Positions 33,872 through 58,272 of a stretch of DNA of 64,000 bases are shown piece after piece. The stretch comes from Bullera alba (taxonomy: Eukaryota; Basidiomycota; Tremellomycetes; Tremellales; Bulleraceae), in assembly GCA_001600095.1 (NCBI GenBank), contig BCIX01000001.1:7465198-7529197 (forward strand). Direction: 5' to 3'. A program made the translations under genes and the position numbers. The notes under the pieces are model-generated. The model ran no database searches. It saw only the letters and a list, made by a program, of their open reading frames with translations, and was not told the origin of the DNA. The first letter of the stretch is position 1. Every line of letters starts with the position of its first letter.

Positions 33872-34711
33872 CTAGTACCTCTTCCATGACTGGTAGACGT
33901 CGGCAAAGTCCCTCTCGCTCAGGTTGTACAGAACGAAACGCTTGCGCTCCTCGCCATCCTCGCCCCATCGCAACGTACCTGGCTGATTGCGAAGCAATCT
34001 AACGTTGTTGTTCTTGACACGAGTCGCACCGCCCTCATCCCACAAATTGGTCTTTCCCTCAACAGGGAACGCTGAGATTGTTTCTCGCAGGAGGTCGTCC
34101 TGGCATCCCGCCAACGTCGCTCGGGCTTTGTCGTACCGAGTCATTGCGGCGCTGTCCAAGAAGTCAGTGACTACACTGGTAGGTTTGCCCTTTTCGACTG
34201 CGAACGCCCCTTCGAGAATGTCGATAAACGACTTCGAGACCGGGTACAAGGTGGCTACCAGAGGAACTTCCGACTCTTGGCCTTGCTGGAGCTCAGCGTA
34301 GGTGGCTCCGAGACTGGGCAGCCAAGAGCCCAGCTTGGCTTCGGATGGGAGCTCGCTCAACTTGCCGACATCGGTTTCCGCGGTGATGAGGGATGTGCCC
34401 CATGCATTCCTGGTCTTCTCCTTGTCGCCCCTGCTCATGGTGATGGTTGCGTTGCGCTCTTCGGATGGTATATTGATATCCCCATGATGGATGCTCCTAC
34501 CCTCGTTCCGGGTGACGACCATGGAATCGAACCCACACGGTCCCGAAGCTTCATATTCTCGGAGCCTGGCCAAAGTCGGCTTGTCCCGAGTCATGGTGTA
34601 TCTGACCTAAGACAGTGGCGAGTCAGTACCACATGACACCAAGATATCAACAATACGACTGACTTTGTCCTCTTCAGACACATCGTCCCAGTTGGATCCC
34701 GAGCCAGACAT
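33872..34711 (-). CDS. Orphan protein, family A copy 1 (about 260 aa)
   Basis: Not recognised. Exon 1 codes MSGSGSNWDDVSEEDK and is joined through a short intron to VRYTMTRDKPT, then one long exon to 33872. It is a clear paralogue of the gene at 35329-36174, roughly half identical by eye. Shared blocks: LREYEAS, FDSM-VTR-EG, LPSE, LGATY-EL-QGQE-EVP-VATL, FIDILE/FVDILE, VITDFL-like, QPGTLRW and KRFVLYN. No signal peptide, membrane segment or known domain was seen; it looks like a soluble cytosolic protein. A tataaa sequence on the minus strand (34826-34831) lies about 115 bp upstream of the start. Confidence 0.7.
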
Positions 34712-35328: not shown

Positions 35329-36174
35329 CTAACGGTAGACGCTGGCAGAGTCACACTCAAAGACATTATACAGGACGAATCGCTTGTGCTCCTCGCCGTT
35401 CTCGGTAGTCCACCTCAACGTACCTGGCTGTTGAGCAACGGTTCTGAACACGTTGTTCTCGACCCGACCTGCGCCTCCGATGGACCAGGACTTGGCGCGT
35501 TCCTCTTCGCCAGCGGGAACTGCCGAAATGGTTTTCAGTAACAGCTCGTCCTGATACTCGGCGCTTTTGGCTTGTCCTCGATGATAGTATACCAAGCTCC
35601 TCTCATCCAAAAAGTCGGTGATCACTTCCGTCGCCTGGCCCTTGTCCCTTCCGAACGCTCTCTCGAGAATATCGACAAACGAGCCCGTGGCCGGATGTAG
35701 GGTCGCGACTGTTGGAACCTCGGCTTCTTGACCTTGTTCCAGCTCCTGGTATGTGGCTCCGAGACCGGACAACCAAGGCTCCAAGACATCCTCGGATGGT
35801 AGGACGCTGGCTTTGTCAACGGTCAACTCGGCACTCACTTGCGATTTACTCCATGCCGGCTTGGTCTTCCTCATGTTACTCTTGGACATGGCGATCGTAG
35901 CATCCTTCTGTTCGCGGTAGGTCCTCTTGGCAGACGGTATGGTGATCTCACCGCGGTGATAAGACTCGCCCTCTTTCCGTGTCACAATCATTGAGTCGAA
36001 CGTATTGGGGTTCGAAGCCTCGTACTCTCGCAGGGTATCCATGGTCGACTTGCCTCGAGTCATCGTATACGTGATCTATGCTGACGTTTCAGAATCACTG
36101 TCATTCCATCGATGCGAGGGCTCAAAATTCACCTTGGCATTGTGCCCACCTGTGTCGGAATCGTAATCAGACAT
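35329..36174 (-). CDS. Orphan protein, family A copy 2 (about 262 aa)
   Basis: Not recognised; paralogue and tandem neighbour of the gene ending at 33872, same orientation. Exon 1 codes MSDYDSDTGGHNAK, and the next exon starts ITYTMTRGKST and runs to 35329. The intron sits at the same place relative to the YTMTR motif in both copies, which supports duplication of an intron-containing gene. This copy has a short insertion (KRTYREQ) after the IPS motif and ends a few residues earlier. No domain, signal peptide or membrane segment was seen. Function unknown. Confidence 0.7.
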
Positions 36175-56293: not shown

Positions 56294-58272
56294 TCAAGGT
56301 TGGCACTTATGCAAGCTGGAGAAAGAATCAGCATCGGGCTTGGAGCTGCTGAGTATGAGACCCACTGTTTGACCCAGTCCGCCGGTAAGGCTGTCCAGCC
56401 CGAGGCCATCCAGACCATCAAGTTGTCTCTCCTCGGTAGTCCTCTTCAGTAGGCCGTCGACGACATCACCGCCCAGTAGACCCGACTTGTAGGCAGCTCC
56501 AGGGTGGGCCTTAGCGAATTGATAAGGTCTGGTTCCAGTGACACCGCCAAGACCACCGAGCACTCCGTTGCCAGCACCACCAAGGACACCATTTCCAGCA
56601 CCACCAAGTACGCCGTTGCCGCCGCCGACCAATCCGTTAGCACCGCCGAGCAAGCCATTGCCGCCGCCGAGGAGCCGCTTCTTGAGACCGAGTCGGTCCA
56701 GTCCAAGGTCCAAGTCAAGACCCAGGTCGACGAGGTTGCAAGTGTTTTGTCGGATGTATCCGAATCGTCGGTCGTACCAGCATGGTGTCCCGTCGACCAA
56801 GTTGCCCAGCACGGCTCGCTTGGCGTTGATGGCAATGTGGGCGTCAATGTCCAGGAGAGAGCAAGCCCTGTTCTTCAAGTAGCCAAAGTTGCCGTTTCGC
56901 CAGCATGGGATTCCGTCGTCCCAAACTGGGGCGAAGCGGGATTTCTTCACGATAGAAAGGTCGGCATCGATATCGGCCTGCGGGGCGTCAGTATATGCTC
57001 CAAGTGTTGGGACCAGAACTTGGCCACTTACAAAGATACACCTGGTGTTCTGGAAGTAGCCGAATCGACCAGTCTCATAGCACGGAGTGCCATCGGCAAA
57101 CTTTGTCGCGCCGCCAAGGAGACCACCGCCTCCGAGCAGACCGCCACGGTTGCCTCCCAGAAGAGCACCGTTGCCGAGGAGGCCACCGTTACCACCGAGA
57201 AGACCGCCGTTGCCGAGGATTCGCTTGGCCAGAGTGATGTCCAGGTCCAACTAGTTCCAATGATCAGCACAAAGTCAGAGGATATGGGAGCGGACTTACT
57301 GCGACACAGAGGGCGTCGGCCATGTAGCCGAACTTGTTGTTGAGCCAACAGGGGGTACCGTCGACAAAGTATGGGGTCCTGTAGCCTCGCTTGACTGCGA
57401 CGACGTCGGCGTCGACGTCCACGTCAATGTCGAGCTAAGTCAAAGTGTCAGTGCTCGTTGCATAATCGTGAAGACGGCCTGACGTACCAGGCCACAGTTT
57501 CGGTCCTTGAGGTAGCCGAATCGGGTGTCCTGCCAACAAGGGGTACCGTCCAGGTAGACTGGCTGACCGTACGGGAAGGGCGTGTAGTCTCGCTTAGCGG
57601 GAGTCTCTTCCTCCTCGGACTAGCAGACGGTCAGTCCGTCTCATTGTTGTCGGTGGTGGATCAGACTCACGGCTACGCAGGTGGAGCCTTCGATTCGGCC
57701 AAAGGAATCGTCGTTCCAGCATGGTTCGCCGTCGACAAAGTCGGGGTGCCCGTGTCTCTTGGCGATTCCACCAACGGCAACGTCGAGGTCAACGTCGACC
57801 TAAGCCAAGTCAACACCGTACTCTATATCGTGCGTAAAGGTTGCTCACTAGGCTGCACTGTCGGTTTCGAAGGTATCCGAACCTTCCGCCCTTCCAGCAT
57901 GGAATACCGTCGGTCCAGACGGGTCGGTAGTAGGATCGCTTGGTCTCAAGCACGAGGCCCGTCTCGACGTCCTAACAACGTAAGCTATCAAGCCCTTGAT
58001 ACTTGGTAGCCCGGTACTCACCAGGACACAGCCACTGTCGCCTAGGATACCGGCTTGGCCGTTAAGCCAGCACGGATCACCATGTCGGCCAACAGGGTGG
58101 TGGCTATCGAATCGGGACTCGATGACGTCGCCAAACTGCCACCCAAGGGGATCAGCGCGATCTCACGAGTCACTATCGACGTTGGAGTACTCACCTTGGT
58201 AGCTGGCATGGGGAGTGGGGCCGCCTGAGCGAGGGCGGCCAAGATGGTGAAAGCAGCCAACACGGAGAACAT
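56294..58272 (-). CDS. Secreted repeat protein, candidate Kex2-processed peptide precursor
   Basis: Protein of 537 residues from eight exons, all introns phase 0 (58272-58195, 58135-58022, 57971-57849, 57799-57671, 57619-57488, 57434-57300, 57250-57032, 56977-56294). Exon 1 is a signal peptide (MFSVLAAFTILAALAQA). Exons 2-7 each encode one repeat and exon 8 two, so eight copies of D-G-x-P-C-[WY]-x4-F-G-Y-x5-C; copies 1 and 3 depart at the FGY positions. Each repeat has two cysteines with 13 residues between them. Most repeats are preceded by an acidic/hydrophobic alternating spacer (LDIDVDVDAD type) ending in KR: TKR, AKR, AKR, VKR, AKR, KK, AKR. Exons 7 and 8 add Leu-Gly-Gly-Asn-rich runs. 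This fits fungal Kex2-processed repeat precursors secreted as several related peptides. Alternatively it is a wall protein with repeats. The family is not recognised. Confidence 0.8.

Follow-up and report, generated by a model that had tools for sequence, protein, structure and literature searches.

A probable secreted repeat precursor from Bullera alba with dibasic sites ahead of two-cysteine modules: a possible new family of fungal peptides

The described systems closest to the gene reported here are the fungal Kex2-processed repeat proteins (KEPs), and published screens for these, as their accounts describe them, detect similar repeats by identity or by motif (PMC6339444, PMC7329392, PMC9769878). 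The definition used by Umemura 2020, for example, is given as at least three tandem repeats of at least 8 aa between sites, with a repeat score above 0.6, and the same source puts KEPs as scarce in Tremellomycetes, with an average of 1.00 per strain (PMC7329392). Those of yeast-like basidiomycetes are described as tending toward longer peptides (PMC6339444). In Coprinopsis, knocking out KEP genes is reported to have caused no phenotype that could be detected, and a function directed at the biotic environment has been proposed; KEPs of this fungus have been expressed in Pichia pastoris (PMC9769878). As to processing itself, two thirds of the tested proteins are reported as cut rapidly at their predicted Kex2 sites, and a conserved KR may stay uncut, the Pry proteins being described as retaining KR and CaRbt4 as uncleaved (PMC2515848).

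The window analysed here, a stretch of 64,000 nucleotides from the Bullera alba genome, carries on its minus strand an eight-exon gene for a secreted protein, running from 58272 to 56294. In the sequence-based model the spliced frame is unbroken from an ATG at 58272 to a TGA at 56296-56294 and encodes 537 aa; the seven introns are 49-59 nt long, all have GT-AG ends, and every one lies in phase 0, as a sequence-only reading of this DNA had stated. On this model we regard the gene as real. Exon 1 (58195-58272) encodes the signal peptide (58222-58272) and a short leader. The signal peptide, MFSVLAAFTILAALAQA, with an AQA/A site assigned by eye, had been claimed earlier and is supported by inspection and by a hydropathy scan of the whole protein, in which 19-residue windows with a mean above 1.6 are confined to the N-terminus; the scan found no other strongly hydrophobic stretch, and none at the C-terminus.

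Eight copies of a two-cysteine module follow. Six of them had been said to stand alone in an exon, and this is borne out: exons 2-7 hold one module apiece, each exon terminating exactly two residues past the second cysteine, and the last two copies share exon 8. Copy 1 (core 58022-58084, HGDPCW...C) lies in exon 2 (58022-58135) with no dibasic upstream; copy 2 (core 57849-57911) lies in exon 3 (57849-57971) behind a KR at 57936-57941; and copy 3 (core 57671-57733) lies in exon 4 (57671-57799), behind an acidic spacer and a KR at 57755-57760. Exon 5 (57488-57619) has an SEEEE spacer, a KR at 57590-57595 and copy 4 (core 57488-57550), and exon 6 (57300-57434) has the spacer LDIDVDVDAD, a KR at 57387-57392 and copy 5 (core 57300-57362). 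The description of the linkers as acidic and alternating is apt for most of them and does not extend to the one before copy 4. In exon 7 (57032-57250) a spacer, a KR at 57221-57226 and a Gly-rich GLLGG block precede copy 6 (core 57032-57094). Exon 8 (56294-56977) holds a KK at 56942-56947 and copy 7 (core 56855-56917), continues with a KR at 56816-56821 and copy 8 (core 56732-56794, with an internal RR at 56765-56770), and ends with a KKR (KK at 56678-56683), a Gly-rich tail, a KR at 56441-56446 and the stop codon (56294-56296). The internal RR, the KKR and KR after copy 8, the GNGVLGG-type Gly-rich tail and the C-terminal cysteine had all been missed before. The tandem Gly-rich blocks, GLLGG in exon 7 and GNGVLGG in exon 8, stand directly after KR and KKR respectively.

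The fixed gap of 13 residues between the two cysteines holds in all eight modules, which contain 16 of the 17 cysteines. The strict motif proposed earlier, DGxPC[WY]x4FGYx5C, describes six of the eight copies and breaks down in copy 1 (HGDPCWLNGQAGILGDSGC) and in copy 3, which has FGR for FGY; G, P, C, G and C are invariant across copies. Identity among the 21-residue cores ranges from 29 to 76 % over the 28 pairs, with a mean of 47 %. AlphaFold2, given copy 5 in nine rows, drew strands at residues 28-31, 34-39 and 42-44, a three-stranded beta meander; block means of pLDDT were 81-90 for the final 25 residues and near 50 for the KR-bearing spacer. Overall confidence in this model is modest (mean pLDDT 69, pTM 0.38), and a helix drawn in the spacer has low confidence. 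A two-module model was poor (mean pLDDT 46), the three strands being drawn twice nonetheless. The two-residue turns in the modules (NG, GG, NN, DT and others) fit such a predicted meander, whose strand register would place Trp, Phe and Tyr on one face and the two cysteines with the invariant Gly on the opposite face. Among solved folds no match to the module was found.

Growth by exon duplication, which had been suggested from the layout, is upheld by the same exon ends and phases across modules, and it appears to be mostly old. Where two cores encode the same residue, 45.7 % of 258 codon comparisons are identical, 47.4 % being expected from the codon usage of the gene, and a z of 2 for intron similarity is passed by 2 of 21 pairs, as chance may give. 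Since synonymous codons are saturated on average and the introns are without clear similarity, the duplications are old on the whole. Some pairs keep more codons (9 of 10 for copies 4 and 5, 8 of 11 for copies 2 and 8), and limited later exchange between some copies is therefore possible. In exon 8, copies 7 and 8 are joined in the common register (CSL, then LDID), as though an intron were missing. Intron 7 (56978-57031, 54 nt) has no in-frame stop; a transcript that retained it would still read through, with 18 extra residues separating copies 6 and 7.

The basic pairs of the protein are placed with some regularity. KR or KK begins 10-16 residues ahead of the core Gly in six of the eight copies (11, 10, 16, 11, 11 and 10 residues for copies 2, 3, 4, 5, 7 and 8), beyond what chance gives, and the earlier statement that such pairs shortly precede most repeats is thereby confirmed. 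Copy 6 has its KR 45 residues before the core, with the Gly-rich block between; copy 7 follows a KK and not a KR; and copy 1 was correctly said to lack KR, no dibasic of any kind preceding it. In shuffles that kept the cores fixed and permuted the remainder, the observed five of eight cores with KR or KK at most 14 residues upstream was reached in none of 20000 (mean 0.40). For dibasics outside modules, ten were observed (KKR counted twice) and shuffling gave a mean of 2.8, at least ten arising in 1 of 20000; the copies being related by descent, the sites are not independent, and the shuffles show a non-random layout, not eight separate gains. Dibasics take up 19 of the 29 Lys and Arg residues outside modules versus 2 of 22 inside, where the RR of copy 8 is the single instance. 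The signal peptide and the shuffle tests together sustain the view of a secreted precursor with dibasics in near-fixed register before two-cysteine modules.

We read the product, with a probability of roughly 0.6, as a secreted polyprotein, a degenerate Kex2-processed repeat precursor that would release folded mini-proteins with probably one disulfide each. In the ER the two cysteines of a module would pair into one disulfide; in the Golgi, Kex2 would cleave after KR and, less surely, after KK; a carboxypeptidase would remove the basic tail; and the mini-proteins would be secreted, each core trailed by the next acidic spacer. Copies 2, 3, 4, 5, 7 and 8 would exit as pieces of 36-48 residues, copy 1 would stay with the leader (57 residues) and copy 6 would carry its Gly-rich arm (73 residues). 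The calculated pI of the six predicted pieces spans 4.1-7.8, and this spread, with the divergence of the cores (29-76 % identity), would make a diversified set likelier than one repeated pheromone; that the targets of the set are other organisms or the cell surface is a weak suggestion, at about one chance in three. Against cleavage stand the missing KR of copy 1, the KK of copy 7 and the internal RR of copy 8, which a kexin could cut.

The genome (19.4 Mb, 7 contigs) was searched in six frames without splicing and the best candidates were scored, so that all counts from it are lower bounds. One kexin-type gene was found (locus L034, G000:C1:6521500-6526000), in which two adjacent P-domain pieces were matched and catalytic-type motifs were recognized by eye. 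By eye it also shows a membrane-spanning stretch and a tail with many acidic residues. Ring closure of the UstA type, put forward as possible in the sequence-only reading, gained no support. A RiPP precursor of the ustiloxin (dikaritin) type, with ring closure, would share with this gene the signal peptide, the repeats flanked by dibasics and the Tyr and Trp within cores, but UstYa (DUF3328) gave nothing above cut-off in the six-frame genome search (best E 0.69), which could miss a split gene as it allowed for no splicing, and none was seen among the 20 of 51 listed window ORFs that were scanned; two-cysteine cores of about 30 residues with a predicted meander fold also argue against it, and we find it barely credible. 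The same 20 of 51 ORFs included no known peptide-tailoring enzyme. The ORFs adjoining the gene match a gamma-tubulin complex component, the Sen1 N-terminus and a GH5 enzyme, and further ones in the window match, among others, a Zn2Cys6 regulator, a piece of a calpain-type protease, BUD22 and a piece of a DEAD helicase. A 256-residue acetyl-CoA synthetase exon has PDB 5ifi as its best match, well ahead of the next sequence (547 versus 401 bits); 5ifi is from Cryptococcus neoformans, as suits a Tremellomycete. Two neighbouring minus-strand ORFs (33875-34606 and 35332-36075) have similar starts (YTMTRxKxTxxxLREYEAS) that suggest tandem paralogues; neither has a Pfam match.

The protein has no family match above cut-off in Pfam, NCBIfam or PDB sequences, protein searches with all or a large part of it returned nothing above cut-off, and motif strings found no paper in the open-licence library searched. 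Pattern and fragment searches of the genome found no paralogue. PCWx4FGY has five matches, all inside this gene; DGxPCW has seven, six of them in this gene and the seventh lacking both FG and the second cysteine; the Gly-rich tail as query returned only this gene (one candidate scored). A module profile search found three proteins among 104 candidates, at E 1.5e-7 to 1.2e-4, namely P0001 (50 aa), P0002 (52 aa) and P0003 (77 aa); P0002 and P0003 lie in one frame and hence in one locus, so that the three relatives represent two loci. A fragment of P0001 run against the genome hit seven places, all inside this gene. All three relatives carry the exact string DGTPCWx4FGx6C, which none of ten chance matches in prokaryote contigs does. 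Their letters suggest that gene calling on unspliced DNA produced frames the size of single exons: P0001 runs on as CDLVR (compare CGLVR in the exon 5 frame here), and P0003 has a Q and then LDVNFNV, resembling the acceptor and spacer here when read from the protein. The earlier idea of a new family without a name holds as far as these searches reach, although three relatives of exon size do exist.

In neither relative locus does a KR precede the module, one module being seen per locus. No basic pair stands ahead of it in P0001, where Arg residues occur only singly, or in P0002, and the two RR of P0003, 40 and 48 residues upstream, are read as probable intron. Judged from these frames, the relatives without KR speak most strongly against cleavage being obligatory, although a KR is also missing before copy 1. 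They favour a different reading, that of an uncleaved or partly cleaved secreted repeat protein in which beta-meander beads on acidic and Gly-rich linkers would coat the cell surface or matrix. The Gly-rich GLLGG and GNGVLGG arms and the divergence of the modules suit such a protein, and Ustilago Rsp3, described as decorating hyphae and predicted not to be Kex2-processed, is a precedent (PMC5923269). The dibasic register and the enrichment of dibasics between modules, however, exceed shuffles, and with no hydrophobic C-terminal stretch there is no sign of a GPI anchor, which Rsp3 is described as lacking too (PMC5923269). We consider a coat protein of this kind unlikely, though far from negligible.

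It is a tentative further step, which we rate well short of even odds, to see here a new fungal family of disulfide mini-proteins produced from a cassette polyprotein, in which one symmetric phase-0 exon would comprise spacer, Kex2 site and folded peptide. If so, duplication, loss or skipping of a cassette would alter the secreted cocktail and leave the frame intact. The exon cassette layout offers a clean test of how repeat precursors grow.

We applied the KEP criteria of the Le Marquer 2019 pipeline (PMC6339444) and the Vogt 2022 screen (PMC9769878) as their accounts give them. For the first, a signal peptide is present (by eye and hydropathy, not SignalP); cuts at KR and RR yield 10 fragments where at least 4 are asked for; and the eight 19-residue cores cover 28 % of the protein by our own count, not the published script, where at least 15 % motif coverage is set. 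The pipeline further asks for at least 3 fragments alike by FIMO; by our own comparison, six of the 10 fragments contain a core, one of them two, and between-fragment BLAST E-values go down to 1e-15. The second screen requires that one fragment share 70 % identity or more with two of the rest, and here the best long pair reaches only 57.5 % (blastp-short); two pairs at 87.5 % involve just 8 residues of the fragment created by the internal RR. The mean core identity of 47 % suggests that the gene would also fall below the repeat threshold of Umemura 2020. The KEP idea thus fits but one published similarity threshold is missed, and we treat the gene as a variant, not as a plain member.

Among other known systems, the bacterial beta-hairpin repeats of WG_beta_rep (PF14903) share a local GrFGYLkd hairpin with the module (hhalign score 14.8, equalled by 1 of 300 column shuffles), but only 11 of 28 columns align, at a probability of 34, both cysteines and the Trp lie outside the alignment, and none of ten aligned modules matches the PF14903 profile at E up to 10. 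Rsp3 of Ustilago maydis, compared by its description, is likewise a repeat protein secreted by a basidiomycete and has a region rich in cysteine; it differs in that its cysteines lie in one region and no Kex2 processing is predicted (PMC5923269). The alpha-pheromone-like KEP of Trichosporon oleaginosus, also a basidiomycete yeast, has two cysteines and a repeated peptide that, as described, ends in GTPCW, recalling DGTPCW here, and a repeated pheromone-like signalling peptide in its style might be envisaged (PMC6339444). That peptide, however, has 14 residues, another cysteine spacing and a terminal PCW, whereas PCW is internal in the modules here and the predicted pieces are about three times longer; repeats in KEPs, alpha pheromones included, are moreover described as identical or near-identical, against a mean of 47 % here, and we think a pheromone highly improbable (PMC6339444). 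With the KEPs of Le Marquer 2019, Umemura 2020 and Vogt 2022 in general, the gene shares a signal peptide, repeats separated by KR or KK and short predicted pieces; unlike them it has degenerate repeats, each with two cysteines and a predicted fold and mostly in its own exon, and its cleavage is a prediction. A precursor with degenerate repeats, whose peptides would fold and carry a disulfide, falls outside at least one of the published screens, so that a hidden class of such precursors may exist beside the KEPs already described.
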